Shown here: piece by piece, positions 169-11,474 of the stretch
Layout of the letters: each line of letters starts with the position of its first letter
How positions within the stretch are numbered: position 1 is the first letter of the stretch
Assembly (NCBI GenBank): GCA_905478065.1
Contig: CAJQGZ010000008.1
Span: 1 to 45,380, forward strand
DNA length: 45,380 bases
Source of the DNA: an uncultured bacterium
GTDB taxonomy: Bacteria > Fidelibacterota > Marinisomatia > Marinisomatales > UBA1611
Direction: 5' to 3'
Notes under the pieces: generated by a model
The model's database searches: none
What the model was told of the DNA's origin: nothing
What the model saw: only the letters and a program-made list of their open reading frames with translations
Position numbers and translations under genes: made by a program

Positions 169-1038
169 GTGAAAGGGATTGTCTTAGCTGGAGGTAGTGG
201 AACTAGACTTTATCCGTTAACTAAAGTTGTCTCAAAACAGCTCCTTCCGGTCTATGATAAGCCAATGATTTATTATTCCTTATCAACTTTAATGCTGTCG
301 GGAATTAAAGATATTTTAATTATATCTACTCCTCAAGATATTGATTTTTATAAGCGCTTATTCGGCAATGGAAATCAGTATGGATTACATTTAGCCTATG
401 AAATTCAGCCTAACCCGGATGGCCTTGCGCAAGCATTTATTATAGGAGAGGAGTTTATAGGGGATGATGATGTTTCTTTAGTGCTTGGCGATAATATATT
501 CTATGGAACAGGTTTTTCTGGTAAATTGAAAAATTGCGTTAACATAGTAGCGAATCAAAAAAAAGCAGTTGTTTTCGGATATGAAGTAAAAAATCCTGAG
601 TGTTATGGTGTCGTTAATTTTGATCAACAAGGTAATGCTTTAAGTATTGAGGAAAAGCCAAAAAAACCAAAGTCAAATTTTGCTGTCGTAGGGTTATATT
701 ATTACCCAAACAGTGTCGTTCGTATTGCTAAAAATGTGAAGCCTTCTGAAAGAGGTGAACTTGAGATAACATCAGTTAATTCATATTACCTTGAAAATAA
801 TAATTTAAAAGTAGAAATATTGGGCCGAGGTTTTGCTTGGCTAGACACCGGTACTATTGATGCAATTAATAATGCATCAAACTATATTCGGACTATTGAA
901 GAAAGGCAAGGCTTAAAAATTGCTTGTTTAGAAGAAATTGCATTTAAAAATAATTTTATAAATAAAAGTCAACTCCAAAAGCTAATTAAAAAATTACCTA
1001 ATGATTATGCAAATTATTTACGTAGATTAGTAGATTAA
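169..1038 (+). CDS. rmlA: Glucose-1-phosphate thymidylyltransferase
   Basis: The protein has 289 residues, the normal length for RmlA. It joins glucose-1-phosphate and dTTP to make dTDP-glucose, the committed step for dTDP-deoxysugars. The nucleotide-binding signature [11 protein letters not shown] is at residues 8-18, followed by a conserved '[12 protein letters not shown]' stretch. Further along are 'LGDNIFYG' (metal/nucleotide site), '[10 protein letters not shown]' and 'GLYYYP', all typical of the family. The start is GTG, immediately after the rmlB stop with no spacer, so translation is probably coupled. rmlC and rmlD are not in the window, so the final sugar (rhamnose or another deoxysugar) cannot be named. 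Confidence 0.95.
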
Positions 1039-1054
1039 CAATTACGTTCAATGG

Positions 1055-2287
1055 ATGACAAAAGTATACTTAAAATTTATTATAATTAGCGTCTTTGTGG
1101 GCTATGCCCGGGCTCAATTTCTTCAACCAGAGTTAGATACAAGAATTGGTTCTATGAATAGGCCTCGTAATAATAAGTTTGCAGAAAATGAACAAACTGA
1201 TTTAAAAATCATTGGCCAGCAAAATTCACCTGTTTCTATGGAAAGAGCAGTTTCGCCTGATAAATACATTATGGGGCCTGGTGATGAATTAGGTCTAAGC
1301 ATAATAATGGGTGAGAGTTTAACGCTACCTGTCAAAGTGACTCCAACTGGTGATGTTTTCATTCCATCTGTAGGCTTAGTGAATATTGCTGGACTTTCAT
1401 TAAGCGCTGCTAGATCAGAGATTAAGAATTTTATTCACGACAACGCTTTTCCAAATGCTAAAGTGAATATAGCTCTTTTAAATATTAGAAATTTTCAAAT
1501 TCAAATCATTGGTGCTATTAAAAATCCTGGTTTCGTTGAAATTTCTGCGCTAGATCGACTTGATAAAGTAATTTTGGCAGCTGATGGATTTCATCCTCTA
1601 GCTAAAGAATATGATATCACTATAACTAGGAAAAATGGAACTCAGGAAAAAGTTAATTTTTTAAATTTTGTTAAAACTGGAAATCTAGAATCAAACCCTA
1701 CTTTTTTAGAAACTGAATTGATCAATATTCCTTTTGGTGATGTATCTTCTAATTCTGTTTCGTTGAGAGGGCAAGTGGGTAACAGCGGATATGATATTAT
1801 TGAGCCAAATGAAACATTATTAAGTTTTCTAAACAGGAGTATAAGCTTAATTGATGAATCTAATTTGCAAAGTATTATTATCACGCGTTCTATTGATAAA
1901 ATAGAACAAATAATTCAAGTCTCCCCGGATGATTTTTTCAATTTTGTACTTTATAATGGAGATATAATAGATATTGCACGAGATGATGGTGTAATGGTAA
2001 ATGGATTTGTTCAAAAGCCAGGAGCATATAATTATTTCCCAGGGTATTTAGCCTATAACTATATAAGTATGGCTGGAGGTAATACGAAAGATGGCAGTAT
2101 TAATAAACTTAAAATAGTTCGTAAAGATGGTACAGTATCTAGGAATTCTGAACTAACGCTTAAGCGAGGTGATGTAATAATTGTCGAAAGATCATCTTTT
2201 TATACTTTGGCAGGTAGTATGAGTATTTTACAAATTGTTACATCCATTCTTACCATATACATGACATATTTAAGTGCCGTAAAATAA
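1055..2287 (+). CDS. Wza-like SLBB-domain polysaccharide export protein
   Basis: The 410-residue protein begins with a signal peptide (hydrophobic residues 5-18, likely cleavage after ARA at 18-20). A Poly_export domain follows from about residue 65 ('SPDKYIMGPGDELGLSI'), then SLBB-type beta-grasp segments ('IIGAIKNPGFVEI', 'LRGQVGNSGYDII', 'VNGFVQKPGAYNYF'). The last 25 or so residues form a hydrophobic helix, as expected for the alpha-helical outer-membrane exit of Wza-type channels. No lipobox cysteine is visible, unlike E. coli Wza. The family forms the outer-membrane export pore for capsule or exopolysaccharide. The stop overlaps the start of the downstream Wzz-like gene by one base (TAATG), so the pair is probably co-translated. 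Confidence 0.88.
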   Translation: MTKVYLKFIIISVFVGYARAQFLQPELDTRIGSMNRPRNNKFAENEQTDLKIIGQQNSPVSMERAVSPDKYIMGPGDELGLSIIMGESLTLPVKVTPTGDVFIPSVGLVNIAGLSLSAARSEIKNFIHDNAFPNAKVNIALLNIRNFQIQIIGAIKNPGFVEISALDRLDKVILAADGFHPLAKEYDITITRKNGTQEKVNFLNFVKTGNLESNPTFLETELINIPFGDVSSNSVSLRGQVGNSGYDIIEPNETLLSFLNRSISLIDESNLQSIIITRSIDKIEQIIQVSPDDFFNFVLYNGDIIDIARDDGVMVNGFVQKPGAYNYFPGYLAYNYISMAGGNTKDGSINKLKIVRKDGTVSRNSELTLKRGDVIIVERSSFYTLAGSMSILQIVTSILTIYMTYLSAVK

Positions 2288-3510
2288 TGAAGTTGACGCC
2301 ACATGAAAAAAAAATATTGGGTCTCATTGAAAAAAATCCGGAAATAATTGATGATACAAAAAAACGTGCCAAAATTGCTAAAGAAAATGATCTAAGTGAA
2401 AAAACTCTAAGAAATAGAATTGGTGATTTGAAAAAATATGGTGTCATCAGTTCAAAAAACATGGATACCTTAAGAGATCTAAATAGAAATTTGAAGACTG
2501 AAGCCAGTATTAAAGAAGATAAGCTTGACCCCTTAGTAATAATTAAAAATAATAAGTCATTAATTGTTAAGGTTTCTCTTATTGCTGGATTCATTGGTCT
2601 CGTTTATGCTCTCTACGCTACTCCATATTATCGATCCACTACTTCAATGTATCCTGCATTAGATACTGAAAAATCAGGAGGTATTCTTGGCGGAAGTATA
2701 AAGGGTCTAGCAGAGTCTTATGGATTGATGGGGCTGGGGTCTGCTCCTACTTATAACATCCCCGATATAGTCTTGAGTCGCAGGATTAAAAAAAATATCA
2801 TTTTATCGAAATGGAAATCACGAGCATATCCAGATAGTTCTAACCTTATAAAATTTTGGGAAATAGACAAGCCAGATAGGTTTTCTCTTTATATTATTTT
2901 GGATTTGTTTAGAGCTTTTTTACCAAAAGAAAAAGGCTATTCTACTTCAACTGATAAATTACATCTAGAAAATGCAATTGAAAAGTTGCAAAGGCAAATA
3001 TCTGTAAATGAAGAGCAATCAGGACTGATTGTCGTTTCCGTTTTAATGGAAGATCCTTTCTTGTCTGCAAACATTACAAATTATATAGCAGATTATGTTA
3101 AAGAATTCATCTCATTAGAACAGGAAAAAGAAGCCATAAAAAAGAAAGAATTTATTTTCAGTCAAATGCAGTCAGCAAAAATAGACTTATCTGATTCAGA
3201 ATTTAAATTGACAAATTTTTTAAAACGAAATCCCCTAGCTTTAGGTAATCCTGACTTGCAACTTCAGCAAGGTCGGTTAATAAGAGAAATAGAGGAGAAT
3301 CAAGCAGTATATATTACTTTAAGACAACAATATGAAATTGCAAAAATTGAAGCAGAGGAAGATAAATTATTTATAAATATCCTTGATGAAGGAGATGTAG
3401 CTGTAAGAAAATCTAAACCAAAAAGGAGCTTGATCGTTTTATCATCTATCTCTTTAGGAATTATGTTTTCATTGTTAATAGTTTTTTATCGAGAAAGGCT
3501 ATATATATAA
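2287..3510 (+). CDS. Wzz-like chain-length determinant with N-terminal helix-turn-helix
   Basis: The 407-residue protein has a Wzz-type layout: membrane helix at about 91-112, a periplasmic region with coiled-coil-like sequence around 270-350, and a second membrane helix at about 380-401 preceded by a proline ('SKPKRSL'). Wzz proteins set the length of Wzy-polymerised sugar chains in the inner membrane. The oddity is the cytoplasmic N-terminus. Residues 3-54 look like a winged helix-turn-helix: one helix (5-20), then 'KRAKIAKENDLSEKTLRNRI' as a helix-turn-recognition-helix, then 'LKKYGVI' leading toward a wing. No C-terminal tyrosine kinase is present. The ATG overlaps the upstream stop. The Wzz call rests on topology and context; the HTH call is by eye from sequence pattern. 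Confidence 0.75.
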   Translation: MKLTPHEKKILGLIEKNPEIIDDTKKRAKIAKENDLSEKTLRNRIGDLKKYGVISSKNMDTLRDLNRNLKTEASIKEDKLDPLVIIKNNKSLIVKVSLIAGFIGLVYALYATPYYRSTTSMYPALDTEKSGGILGGSIKGLAESYGLMGLGSAPTYNIPDIVLSRRIKKNIILSKWKSRAYPDSSNLIKFWEIDKPDRFSLYIILDLFRAFLPKEKGYSTSTDKLHLENAIEKLQRQISVNEEQSGLIVVSVLMEDPFLSANITNYIADYVKEFISLEQEKEAIKKKEFIFSQMQSAKIDLSDSEFKLTNFLKRNPLALGNPDLQLQQGRLIREIEENQAVYITLRQQYEIAKIEAEEDKLFINILDEGDVAVRKSKPKRSLIVLSSISLGIMFSLLIVFYRERLYI

Positions 3511-3517
3511 ATATTTT

Positions 3518-4690
3518 ATGTTTGTTGATCATATCAGTTATTTAGCTTTTCAACAATTTTTCATAGCTACTATAGTTTGGTGTTTTTCTTTTTTAGTACT
3601 TTCTCAATATCTGAATATTCAGCATAAAGAAATATCAAATAAAAAGAGCTTCTTTCTGAATTACTATATTGCTCTATCAATCGTTGCAGTTATAAGAATT
3701 TTTTCAAATATTTTACCTAATACTCCTGATAGTTTTATGTACTTAAAAGCTTCTGAACGAATTGCTAACGGTAATGATTTTTTTTTTATGGGCGCTTTTT
3801 TTTATAGTGATATTATTTATTTTATCAAGTCTATTACATTTGATAATCACTATGCTATCATTTTCTTGAACAATGTTTTATTTATTTTCGCCTTAGTTAA
3901 ATTATTAAAAATAGTTCCTAAAAGTAACCTAAACTCCTTTTGGTTATGGTTTCTTTTTCTTCTAGCGTACCCATCTATTTATTGGTTTGTCCCAAATGTT
4001 TTAAGAGAATCAATATTTTTTTATTGCATCGTGAATATATTTGCATATTCATTAGATTTTCAAAATTCAAAATTGAGGTTGCAAAATATTTTTTCGTTAG
4101 TGTTTTTTAGTATTTTTAGTGTTCTTTTAAGGCCACAGATTCTTCCAATTCTATTTGTATGGTATACATATGTATTTTTTAAAAAAAGTATCCTTTTTGG
4201 ATTACTAATTTCATTGATTGGTATAATCTTTTTAAAAAATGATTATATTATATCAGAATATTTATCAAAAATTTCCTTTGAATATTTAGAAGCTAAGAAA
4301 ATTGAAGGTGCTGCAAGCATTCCCACCATAGCTTTCAAACAGACAATTGTTCCAAATTCTTTTTATGAATTAATTATTCTTACGCCTTATTTAGTTTTTA
4401 GATTTTTATTTGCACCGTTTCCCTGGGAGATATCAAATCTCCGGTATTCCTTTGCTTTTTTAGATTCACTCATCTTGGTAGTTCTTTTTCTTAACATCGC
4501 TTGGAATGCTATTAAAAGAAAGCTCTGGAGTTTAGACATTGTGGTTTTTACATTTTTATTTATTACTATACTGGGTGTTTTTGAAATTGCTTTTACTGGT
4601 GCTGTAAGGCATAGAATGCCATATATCCTCATTTTATCTACATTGGTAATGTCTGGTTCTAAAAATAAAAAGATTTTTGCTCCTAGATGA
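3518..4690 (+). CDS. Multipass membrane protein, probable polysaccharide polymerase (Wzy-like)
   Basis: The 390-residue protein is strongly hydrophobic, with roughly ten predicted membrane helices. Charged or polar patches sit where Wzy-like polymerases often carry conserved residues: 'NVLRES' near residue 160, 'LRPQ' near 205 and 'GAVRHRMPY' near 365. Wzy enzymes polymerise lipid-linked repeat units on the periplasmic face of the inner membrane. Its place between the Wzz-like protein and the Wzx flippase is the main support, since this family diverges too fast for firm recognition. Alternatives are an EpsG-like polymerase or a membrane glycosyltransferase. Codon use is extremely AT-rich, like the flippase and glycosyltransferases downstream. 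Confidence 0.6.
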   Translation: MFVDHISYLAFQQFFIATIVWCFSFLVLSQYLNIQHKEISNKKSFFLNYYIALSIVAVIRIFSNILPNTPDSFMYLKASERIANGNDFFFMGAFFYSDIIYFIKSITFDNHYAIIFLNNVLFIFALVKLLKIVPKSNLNSFWLWFLFLLAYPSIYWFVPNVLRESIFFYCIVNIFAYSLDFQNSKLRLQNIFSLVFFSIFSVLLRPQILPILFVWYTYVFFKKSILFGLLISLIGIIFLKNDYIISEYLSKISFEYLEAKKIEGAASIPTIAFKQTIVPNSFYELIILTPYLVFRFLFAPFPWEISNLRYSFAFLDSLILVVLFLNIAWNAIKRKLWSLDIVVFTFLFITILGVFEIAFTGAVRHRMPYILILSTLVMSGSKNKKIFAPR

Positions 4691-4780: not shown

Positions 4781-6211
4781 ATGTCAAATAATGTAATTAA
4801 AAGTAAGAGTTTTATCTATTTATTTTCAAAAATATTTGCTGCTTTATTTCAATTATTGAGTATATATCTTTTTACAAGAATTTTCAGTACGGAAGTATAT
4901 GGTGACTTCATTTTATTTAGTTCATATGTTATGTTTATATGTTCCTTTGTTTTTTGGTGGCATAGGCTTTCCGTTTACAGATATTATCATAAATTTAAAA
5001 AAAGGTATAGTACCTTTATAAAAACCAGTTATTTTTCTTTTTATGCTTTGTGCATTTTCTTAATAGTAATTTATTTATTTTTAAATATTTTTTCTTCAAC
5101 TGGCTTGTTAAAAGTAAGTGACATTTTTCTTCTAAGCATATTAGCCTCAACTTTTAGGTCAATTTTTGATTTAAATCAAAATTTATTAAATATAAATAGG
5201 GATGATACTTTTTTTGGGTTAAATATAATTATTCGGCCTTTATTTTTTTTGGGTGTGTGTCTTTTTGTCTACAACGTTTTTCCTAATAGCCAATATGCCC
5301 TCTTAATTGGATTTATGTCATCTTTTGCGATTAGCTCAATCTATTCTAGTTATTATATCCAGAGAAATACTGGAGATGGTTCTTTTGATAAAAATATTAT
5401 AAAAAAATTTATTTCTTATGGCTTCCCACTTACTGGATTATTTTTCTTTGATTATATTTTGACGTCTTCTGACAGAATTATAATTGGATATTTTTTTGAT
5501 TCAAAAATGGTCGGAATATATGGCGCTAATTATGATTTTATTAAGCAAATAATATTATTTTTGGTTATAGTTCAAGGACTAATTATCTATCCAGAGATTA
5601 ATAGAACCTACGAAAAGGGAAATCAAATTGAGTTGGGGAATTTGATGTCCTTAAATTTTAATCTTTTAATTGTGATAATATTACCTCTTTCAATATTCGT
5701 TGCATTTTTTAATGAGTTTATTACCTCAATTTTTATCGGTGATAGCTTTAATTATTCATCATCTTTATTAATCCCATCTTTTTCATTTATGTTTTTCTTT
5801 TGGGGTTTAAAAATATATCATTTTGATTATGTATTCTTTCTTAGAGAAAAAACTAAAGTATCAATGAAAATTTTATTCTTTGGCAGCCTCTTTAACATTT
5901 GTTTAAATCTAGTTCTAATTCCGAGATATGAATTGATGGGAGCCGCATTTTCAACACTTTTAGCTTATTTAATTTGCTTAGTTCTTTCAGTTTATAAAGG
6001 ACGCTCATTAATGAGATTTAACATAAATAAACCCATTATATTAAAAACTCTATCATTTGTAAGTATTTCAATTATAATAACTTTTATCATTGAGTCTATG
6101 AATTTGCACATAGGATACCAGATACTTACTTTTATACTTATTTACTCCTTACTAACTTTGTTTTTTAATTCGGTTACACTCAAGAACTTTTTAAAAAGGT
6201 TTGTATTTTGA
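4781..6211 (+). CDS. Lipid-linked oligosaccharide flippase (Wzx-like, MOP superfamily)
   Basis: The 476-residue protein has about 12-14 hydrophobic helices. It opens with 'KSKSFIYLFSKIFAALFQLLSIYLF', broken here as the usual N-terminal helix of Wzx/RfbX flippases. Other family features include 'YGFPLTGLFFFDYILTSSDR' (residues about 213-232), 'VGIYGANYDF' and the late 'ELMGAAFSTLLAYL', all common in this polysaccharide-exporter branch. Wzx moves undecaprenyl-diphosphate-linked repeat units across the inner membrane. A 90-base gap separates it from the polymerase-like gene. Its stop overlaps the TTG start of the next glycosyltransferase by four bases. The product transported cannot be deduced. 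Confidence 0.85.
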   Translation: MSNNVIKSKSFIYLFSKIFAALFQLLSIYLFTRIFSTEVYGDFILFSSYVMFICSFVFWWHRLSVYRYYHKFKKRYSTFIKTSYFSFYALCIFLIVIYLFLNIFSSTGLLKVSDIFLLSILASTFRSIFDLNQNLLNINRDDTFFGLNIIIRPLFFLGVCLFVYNVFPNSQYALLIGFMSSFAISSIYSSYYIQRNTGDGSFDKNIIKKFISYGFPLTGLFFFDYILTSSDRIIIGYFFDSKMVGIYGANYDFIKQIILFLVIVQGLIIYPEINRTYEKGNQIELGNLMSLNFNLLIVIILPLSIFVAFFNEFITSIFIGDSFNYSSSLLIPSFSFMFFFWGLKIYHFDYVFFLREKTKVSMKILFFGSLFNICLNLVLIPRYELMGAAFSTLLAYLICLVLSVYKGRSLMRFNINKPIILKTLSFVSISIIITFIIESMNLHIGYQILTFILIYSLLTLFFNSVTLKNFLKRFVF

Positions 6212-9678: not shown

Positions 9679-11289
9679 TTACCAGTTAAAATCTAAGCCC
9701 ACGATAAATGTTGTTCCTGATTTCTTTAATTTTTCAGAGTTATTGCTTATGTATTCATCACTGTTAATTATAATTGTAGTACTAAAATTTATATTTATTG
9801 ATAATAAATATTGAAGATCAAACTTGTATTTATATGAATGAGTTTTGTCCTTAAGTAAAAATTCAGTATTCCAATCATTGTCTCTATTTCTTTCGTCATA
9901 ATTATCAAAGAGTCCAGATCCCTTACCGATGCCTTTTTGAACATGCTCAAAAGCACTATAAAAAATTATTTTTGACGAAGGTAAATAAAAAGATTCTATC
10001 AGAAGCGCTTTACTTGCCGGGCCATCGGAAGACCCCAGTGATTGATGTCTGTGTGAATAAGAGAAATCGGGGTGCGTATATGTCCAGGGCCTAGTCGCAG
10101 TATATTCAATTCTCAGGTCTGGAAGGCTTATATTTTTTGATGATAAAAATATTCCAAATTGGTATGAAAATTTATTACCCCACCAATCTTTAAAAATATC
10201 TTTCCAAGAAAGCTCATCAAAAAGTAATGTCTTATATATCACGCACCCAGGTACAATTCGATACCCTAGATCAGCCGCGATTAACTTATTATCTAGATCG
10301 CCAAGATTATGCTCCTGGGCCCAAAAAAAAGATATAGGGTTCATATAACCTAGCTCAGGCGACCTGTTTCCATAAATGACTAGTTCAGAAATTGAAGCGT
10401 GAAGATTACTGTTTATCTCATACTTAACTCGATGACCAGAAAGAAATTTCTCTTTTTTTATGTTTTCATTATGAATTTCATCTATTGTTTTATTTAAAAG
10501 ACTACCATGAAAATATTCAAAATTAAATTTCCCTAAGCTTTTATAAAGTCTCAGGTGATTAAACGGTGTGGCTTTTGCAGATAAAATTGGTGAATTTCCT
10601 GATGACCATCCCCATGAGAAAGGATTATTTGCAATTTCTACGTTCACTAAAGGGTTCTTTAAATAAAGAGAAGTATTATTTAAATACCAAAAAGTCATAT
10701 CAATTTCCGGGAAATATTTTTTCCATTCGTTTCTATAATTATTTAAAATTGAGATTTGATCTCCATTATGTCGAAACATTGAAAATGTCGATCTAATATA
10801 TAATTGATTATTAAATATACCATTGAAAGAAATTTCGTCAAGGTATTGAAAGTTTCGCTGATTTTTTTGACTCTGGCTCAATAAAACTTCACGTAGCCTA
10901 ATCCATATTAATGTTGTGTCAGATATTGATTGATAGAAATATTTATTTTCAATATCAACGTTAGATTTAAATATTTTACTATAAAAATTTGGGATGCTAC
11001 TTTTCTGTTTTAAGGAATCAAGTGATGTCTTTTTATATGGGATTCTAAAATTTAGTAGGCTTTTAATATAAATTTTATTTTCGTTTTTTTTAAGTATCTT
11101 GTCTGCATCAATTGAGCTTATCGAGTTATTTCCAAAATAATTTAAGGAAATTTTTCCTTGTGCTGACAATCTCTTTAGTATGATACTAGAGGGATGATTT
11201 AGCTCTATTGGCATTTGTGAAAACACAAAAATGTTTGAAATAAAAATAGAAAGAAAAATTAGTTTTGAATATTGTTGTTTCATAATCAT
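9679..11289 (-). CDS. Capsule assembly Wzi family outer-membrane protein
   Basis: The 536-residue protein has an N-terminal signal peptide ('KLIFLSIFISNIFVFSQ', cleavage probably near residue 25). A long stretch of alternating polar/aromatic beta-strand sequence follows, as in a beta-barrel. Family-like stretches include 'GWSSGNSPILSAKATPFNHL', 'ISELVIYGNRSPELGYMNP', 'WTYTHPDFSYSHRHQSLG' and a final aromatic 'FIVGLDFNW', consistent with C-terminal barrel insertion. Wzi-family proteins help retain or organise capsule at the outer membrane. It is on the opposite strand, convergent with the glycosyltransferases and divergent from the sugar-phosphate transferase. An in-frame ATG two codons downstream (11283) is an alternative start. 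Confidence 0.8.
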   Translation of the reverse strand: MIMKQQYSKLIFLSIFISNIFVFSQMPIELNHPSSIILKRLSAQGKISLNYFGNNSISSIDADKILKKNENKIYIKSLLNFRIPYKKTSLDSLKQKSSIPNFYSKIFKSNVDIENKYFYQSISDTTLIWIRLREVLLSQSQKNQRNFQYLDEISFNGIFNNQLYIRSTFSMFRHNGDQISILNNYRNEWKKYFPEIDMTFWYLNNTSLYLKNPLVNVEIANNPFSWGWSSGNSPILSAKATPFNHLRLYKSLGKFNFEYFHGSLLNKTIDEIHNENIKKEKFLSGHRVKYEINSNLHASISELVIYGNRSPELGYMNPISFFWAQEHNLGDLDNKLIAADLGYRIVPGCVIYKTLLFDELSWKDIFKDWWGNKFSYQFGIFLSSKNISLPDLRIEYTATRPWTYTHPDFSYSHRHQSLGSSDGPASKALLIESFYLPSSKIIFYSAFEHVQKGIGKGSGLFDNYDERNRDNDWNTEFLLKDKTHSYKYKFDLQYLLSININFSTTIIINSDEYISNNSEKLKKSGTTFIVGLDFNW

Positions 11290-11384
11290 TGCATTTACTG
11301 TTGTTGAATGCTAATTTTGATTTTCCAATTTAAGGATTCCTATCGAAAAAAAACGCTATCAGTTTGTCAAAAAATAAATAAAAG

Positions 11385-11438
11385 AACTTTGTTCATCATG
11401 ACGAGCTTGGAGGCGTCACTCCAAAGTTGTTATTGACG
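11385..11438 (+). promoter_or_regulatory. Structured leader with competing hairpins before sugar-phosphate transferase
   Basis: The 185-base divergent intergenic region holds a compact set of inverted repeats. AACTTTG (11385-11391) pairs with CAAAGTT (11422-11428), enclosing TGACG (11399-11403) pairing with CGTCA (11414-11418). A competing hairpin TTGGAG (11407-11412) / CTCCAA (11419-11424) shares bases with the outer stem and uses CGTCA as its loop. A second TGACG (11434-11438) could also capture CGTCA. Mutually exclusive pairings are typical of attenuators or antitermination/pausing leaders, which are known before polysaccharide operons (RfaH ops, UpxY and LoaP systems). No ops sequence is seen; function is inferred. 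Confidence 0.4.
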
Positions 11439-11474
11439 GTTAATTTCTAGTTAATTAATTATTCAATCAATAAT

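Follow-up and report, generated by a model that had tools for sequence, protein, structure and literature searches.

In the known polysaccharide co-polymerases (PCPs) of the Wzz/Wzc/KpsE family, the N-terminal tail is short or a tyrosine-kinase domain is present at the C-terminus. In the transcription regulators CadC, ToxR, and TcpP, a cytoplasmic N-terminal DNA-binding-type domain, a membrane helix, and a periplasmic domain are joined in one protein. The cytoplasmic N-terminus of streptococcal CpsA, a capsule-assembly membrane protein of the LytR-CpsA-Psr type, is said to bind its own capsule promoter. Both kinds of protein, PCPs and transmembrane transcription regulators, are established. 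A survey of the latter (PMC10269533) mentions neither Wzz nor chain length, and a literature search, mainly of open-access papers, returned no paper on a PCP with a helix-turn-helix (HTH) domain or on a Marinimicrobia Wzz; that such a protein has not been found described is not proof of novelty.

The protein described here, encoded by hth-wzz, is a PCP with an N-terminal HTH. Its predicted layout is that of CadC, ToxR, and TcpP, but it differs from them in having two membrane helices, a periplasmic part that is an assembly protein, and an HTH of the Lrp/AsnC/LexA/Csa3-like rather than the OmpR type. It also differs from CpsA, which has an unrelated fold and is a phosphotransferase-type assembly enzyme, not a PCP.

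The hth-wzz gene and its product

The hth-wzz gene (2287..3510, forward strand, exact open reading frame bounds; 407 amino acids) lies in a window of 45,380 nucleotides from an uncultured bacterium. Its ATG overlaps the stop codon of wza by one base (TAATG). The wza gene for the polysaccharide export protein (1055..2287, +), identified by Pfam Poly_export and SLBB matches and by synteny, is located directly upstream and is preceded by an rmlA-like nucleotidyltransferase gene (169..1038, +; Pfam). Downstream are the genes of a multi-spanning protein with seven hydropathy peaks and no Pfam match, a candidate Wzy polymerase (3518..4690, +), and of a Wzx-like flippase (4781..6211, +; Pfam). The polysaccharide cluster also includes, on the opposite strand (9679-11289, −), a gene for a 536-residue protein that matches no Pfam family and has one hydrophobic stretch at its N-terminus.

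The product begins with the HTH (residues 1-57; 2287..2457, +), in which the recognition-helix motif EKTLRNR occupies residues 38-44. A cytoplasmic linker (residues 58-88; 2458..2550, +) leads to the first membrane helix (residues 91-109; 2557..2613, +), seen as a hydropathy peak and as a helix spanning residues 90-110 in the AlphaFold2 (AF2) model. The periplasmic Wzz/GNVR domain follows (2614..3429, +; Pfam and Foldseek), and then the second membrane helix (residues 382-400; 3430..3486, +; hydropathy, AF2 helix 380-406) and a short cytoplasmic tail. The Pfam GNVR model scores 50.7 bits (cut-off 27.7, E 1.7e-13), and the Wzz model, with 24.0 bits, is slightly below its cut-off of 25.5. The full-length AF2 model (mean pLDDT 79.8) has the PCP fold, with Foldseek matches to Wzc (E 1e-12), WzzE, KpsE, and WzzB. 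Pfam detects no kinase domain in the protein, and the BY-kinase model TIGR01007 finds nothing above its cut-off in the genome, which is 82% complete. The protein resembles the PCP family in its two membrane helices, GNVR region, and fold, as well as in the adjoining wza, wzx, and candidate wzy genes, and differs from it in the HTH before the first membrane helix and in having no kinase domain. The preliminary description of this DNA had reported an HTH fused to a two-helix Wzz-type protein without a kinase, and the reading frame, Pfam, hydropathy, AF2, and Foldseek all uphold it.

In Pfam, the HTH of the window protein gives only a weak match (HTH_24, E 0.015). A phmmer search with residues 1-80 against the PDB finds the winged HTH of Csa3 (E 1.4e-4), the PADLOC CARF-HTH models match the N-terminus at 1e-6, and one homolog, L042, exceeds the gathering score of Pfam HTH_Mga (24.6 vs 23 bits). 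In the AF2 model of residues 1-98, pLDDT is 91-97 across residues 1-50, with helices at residues 5-16, 18-21, 24-33, and 38-51. Structurally, the model aligns best with Lrp/AsnC HTHs (2dbb: Z 7.2 and rmsd 1.8 across 56 residues) and almost as well with LexA and LuxR-type HTHs; Z values near 7 denote a common arrangement and not a function. A chance resemblance to an HTH is ruled out by the Csa3 and HTH_Mga matches, the model, and its structural neighbors.

Residues 3-54 had previously been read as a winged HTH. The prediction yields a confident three-helix HTH, and the domain is called HTH rather than winged HTH here because the model lacks wing strands. A CadC/ToxR-like layout had likewise been proposed; the order of the parts agrees with this as a prediction, while the OmpR-type winged helix does not, since Trans_reg_C is absent among the Pfam matches up to E 1. 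The HTH module resembles that of Csa3 (CARF) regulators by sequence and, by a narrow margin over LexA and LuxR-type HTHs, that of Lrp/AsnC regulators by structure. Unlike these, the hth-wzz protein is membrane-anchored and has no RAM or CARF ligand domain; Pfam gives no match to RAM (the AsnC ligand domain), and the C-terminus is the PCP.

The HTH and the linker evolve very differently. Between the window and its relative G002, the HTH has a dN of 0.037 and a dS of 0.68 (dN/dS ~0.05). The 31-residue linker retains 6-19% identity within the genus when the nearest pair is excluded, with a dN of ~0.8-1.0, and has low pLDDT in the AF2 models. These values suggest a folded head on a loose tether, in which the HTH is constrained and the linker nearly unconstrained. 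Across 47 fusions, which are pattern-selected loci, 11 of the 15 invariant columns fall in the HTH, the best-conserved region of the protein. Since the scan of named genomes used the pattern EKTLRNRI, invariance was rechecked in rows found without the pattern, and EKTLRNR is invariant among the profile-found rows as well.

Distribution in Marinimicrobia and marine Euryarchaeota

A homolog is present in 46 of 61 related genomes, and in 42 of the 61 the match includes the start of the HTH, so the domain order noted in the window recurs in its relatives. In the neighborhoods read, wza is directly upstream of hth-wzz. When 199 genomes of the phylum are searched with a profile, there is nearly always one strong match per genome, located in a PCP-sized frame (about 395-600 amino acids) unless a contig end or an assembly artefact cuts it; the only strong match outside the order is in G132. 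The weak matches in G072, G064, G085, and G051 turn out to be two NtrC-type regulators, an AlbA-type protein, and a long protein, none of them related. A scan of named genomes covering 84,980 species gives 57 loci, which belong to Marinimicrobia and to three Euryarchaeota. Some of the Marinimicrobia loci come from records that say just "bacterium" or "FCB group", and another comes from a "Chloroflexi" record (L066), which is probably mislabelled because it is identical to the Marinimicrobia copy L067. The named records place the lineage in Candidatus Marinimicrobia (SAR406), uncultivated bacteria of the ocean. An HTH on the PCP, whose expected role is to set the length of the surface polysaccharide, is thus usual in this Marinimicrobia order and no oddity.

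Homologs lacking the N-terminal domain, with a conserved start at about residue 80, had been named as what would speak against the fusion. HTH-less relatives that start near residues 67-75 do exist (L025 and L026), but only as extra paralogs in G047 and G034, each of which also keeps a separate HTH-bearing copy. A truncated fusion, L032, is a single-cell assembly artefact, the other half being inverted on the same contig. G014 does not qualify as an hth-less genome and offers no such test, since its wza contig stops before the hth position; of its two element sites (see below), site 2 is intact and site 1 is one base off. A miscalled start or an out-of-frame extension is ruled out by the conserved start and by the dN/dS of the HTH, and the strong purifying selection on this domain together with its conservation across the order indicates that the HTH is not there by chance.

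In the three marine Euryarchaeota (L076, L078, and L086, around 5001-5300), the same HTH is found on a protein of ~100 amino acids that has one membrane helix, at its C-terminus, and lacks a PCP; its gene lies among unrelated housekeeping-type genes. This protein is present in 2 of 79 genomes of that archaeal order. Its existence points to a small family of membrane-tethered regulators without a name in the HMM libraries searched.

These observations bear on whether the domain still acts on DNA. HTH folds can be reused, and in a membrane-bound protein encoded inside an assembly operon, for which DNA binding is a prediction, the fold could serve a protein contact (with the polymerase, with glycosyltransferases, or in nucleoid or ribosome tethering) and no longer transcription. 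We consider this unlikely, because the seven residues E-K-T-L-R-N-R at the start of the recognition helix, the polar ones among which are expected to face DNA, are invariant while the linker drifts, and because the same HTH occurs on the unrelated one-helix archaeal protein without a PCP.

A conserved palindrome near wza

The palindrome GCCCGGGC is found at 1106-1113, upstream of hth-wzz, and this is its sole exact copy in the window. It forms part of a candidate operator, GGGC-TAT-GCCCGGGC (1099..1113, no strand assigned), within the signal-peptide codons of wza (G-Y-A-R-A-Q). The preliminary description had proposed feedback on the protein's own locus through the rml region and the interval 11290-11474. 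Neither holds an exact GCCCGGGC; the idea of feedback as such gains indirect support from the conserved palindrome at the wza promoter or 5' end.

In the 2.13-Mb genome, GCCCGGGC occurs twice and the reversed control not at all, and one of the two copies is at this operon. The other (G000:C116:2761, L119) is intergenic, 5' of a homocitrate-synthase-like gene (TTGCCCGGGCA), and no matching site is present among the genus relatives listed. In every one of the 16 scanned relatives, copies are present at the wza operon, those of G015 lying on a separate small contig (L112). Except for the intergenic copy on G000:C116, the remaining copies sit in unrelated coding genes and were rejected as operators; no second conserved site is seen in the genus.

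Across the 57 loci, 64 copies of GCCCGGGC are found, compared with about 1 expected. In an unbiased 8-mer scan of the 2.5 kb upstream of hth-wzz, GCCCGGGC ranks top (17/17 class-A loci vs 0.027 expected; 26/42 overall vs 0.21). When the serS-wza intergenic regions of 18 class-A loci are aligned, TGCCCGGGC or GCCCGGGC stands out as invariant within AT-rich DNA. The element lies beside the wza promoter region in 17/17 class-A loci, and in most of them a TTGxxx hexamer follows about 10-12 nt after it. In the genus of the window, the element is inside wza, mid-way in a longer operon, and no obvious promoter adjoins it. The element is absent from the three archaeal HTH loci (6.6-10 kb around each).

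Class-A loci have a second copy of GCCCGGGC in the Gly-Pro-Gly codons of wza (GGC-CCG-GGC; 16/17 loci). Among 63 conserved degenerate columns in 17 wza genes, only these three fix one codon in 16/17 loci, all others reaching at most 12/17, and their GC3 is 0.94 compared with a mean of 0.28. Under each locus's own codon usage, the probability of this choice is about 0.001-0.01. The loci are related and not independent draws; the control is provided by the remaining wza columns, whose history is the same. With three f9-type loci added (L062, L071, and L087), the codon choice holds in 19/20 loci. No comparable synonymously frozen run is found in the other operon genes. Sites in class-B ugd (VARAIG and EPGL codons) were dropped as operators because they show no synonymous freeze. 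In the genus of the window and in L067/L068, the element instead occupies codons of the signal peptide (Ala-Arg-Ala, GCC-CGG-GCN), and GGGC lies three bases before it. The preservation of the same short sequence in a non-coding and two different coding settings is best explained by a DNA element, and GCCCGGGC is a good candidate operator on this comparative evidence.

GGGC and GCCC can pair around a loop of 3-4 nt, so that GGGC-N4-GCCCGGGC might act as RNA, forming a short hairpin in a leader transcript and working independently of the HTH; class A has a second conserved leader element farther downstream, which would fit this. Such a role is very improbable given that the class-A element precedes the promoter-like hexamers of wza and is not in the leader, that the second site inside wza keeps the GCCCGGGC core without the upstream GGGC, and that Rfam gives no match. 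The downstream element, GGAATACTATCGATATAAACTGCGCCCAGTTTA followed by AAAGGCA, is seen in class-A loci L031-L075 ~68 nt after the start of GCCCGGGC and before wza (in L033 near 3160-3210). It has no Rfam match either and may serve the polysaccharide operon as a leader or pausing element. A cobalamin riboswitch (L155, 632-762) is present upstream of a long gene array that contains a class-B polysaccharide operon.

In the HTH-PCP tree, the element is carried by a short-PCP clade, with the single exception of L039, which is cut by a contig end and whose sites are on L112. A long-PCP clade, about half of the loci, has the same recognition helix, but L067/L068 are its only loci with the element near wza; in this clade, near matches searched for around wza do not exceed background. 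Here, the ugd-wza-hth cluster is located behind the housekeeping genes cmk, rpsA, and tsaD. In several genomes of this clade (G038, G050, G057, G041, and G053), GCCCGGGC is less frequent than the reversed control (3 vs 18 and 9 vs 55, for example), as if avoided.

The missing element in the long-PCP clade, despite the same HTH, is the main weakness of the operator reading. The HTH could bind DNA at another target, either a site common to both clades or one elsewhere, and GCCCGGGC could belong to a different transcription factor. The identical recognition helix in the clade without the element favors this explanation, which is possible, if on balance doubtful: in the genus of the window the only conserved place of the element is this operon, as would fit a local autoregulator, and the Pfam scan of EPS-cluster genes in the window turned up no other HTH protein.

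A co-polymerase that may regulate its own operon

Since the HTH-PCP is conserved and the element lies near its own operon, the assembly machine may exert direct control over the genes that encode it. We propose a membrane-anchored regulator built into the PCP that most likely binds GCCCGGGC and controls its own operon, and we give this reading a probability of roughly one half. The cytoplasmic HTH, which the first PCP helix would tether to the inner membrane, would act as a one-component regulator. It would bind GCCCGGGC, often as GGGC-N3/4-GCCCGGGC, near the wza start, and binding would control transcription of the polysaccharide operon. We infer the DNA binding, the pairing of the HTH with this element, the activation or repression that would follow, and any sensing from sequence comparison and predicted structure.

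PCPs form rings, so one ring would present several HTHs at once, an arrangement that would favor a grip on two sites separated by a few hundred bp. Ring assembly or polymer occupancy could then alter DNA binding. A tentative and rather unlikely extension is that the PCP ring is itself the sensor, its HTH array gripping two GCCCGGGC operators about 370-450 bp apart, one at the promoter and one in the wza coding sequence, with polymer-dependent changes of the ring switching the operon.

It is largely an open question how cells adjust the transcription of capsule and exopolysaccharide operons to the state of their export machinery. An HTH within a co-polymerase, together with a short candidate operator of high information content, makes it testable with one domain and one DNA fragment. 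If the ring does act as the sensor, it would provide a direct link from the state of polysaccharide assembly to transcription, without a kinase or a second messenger.
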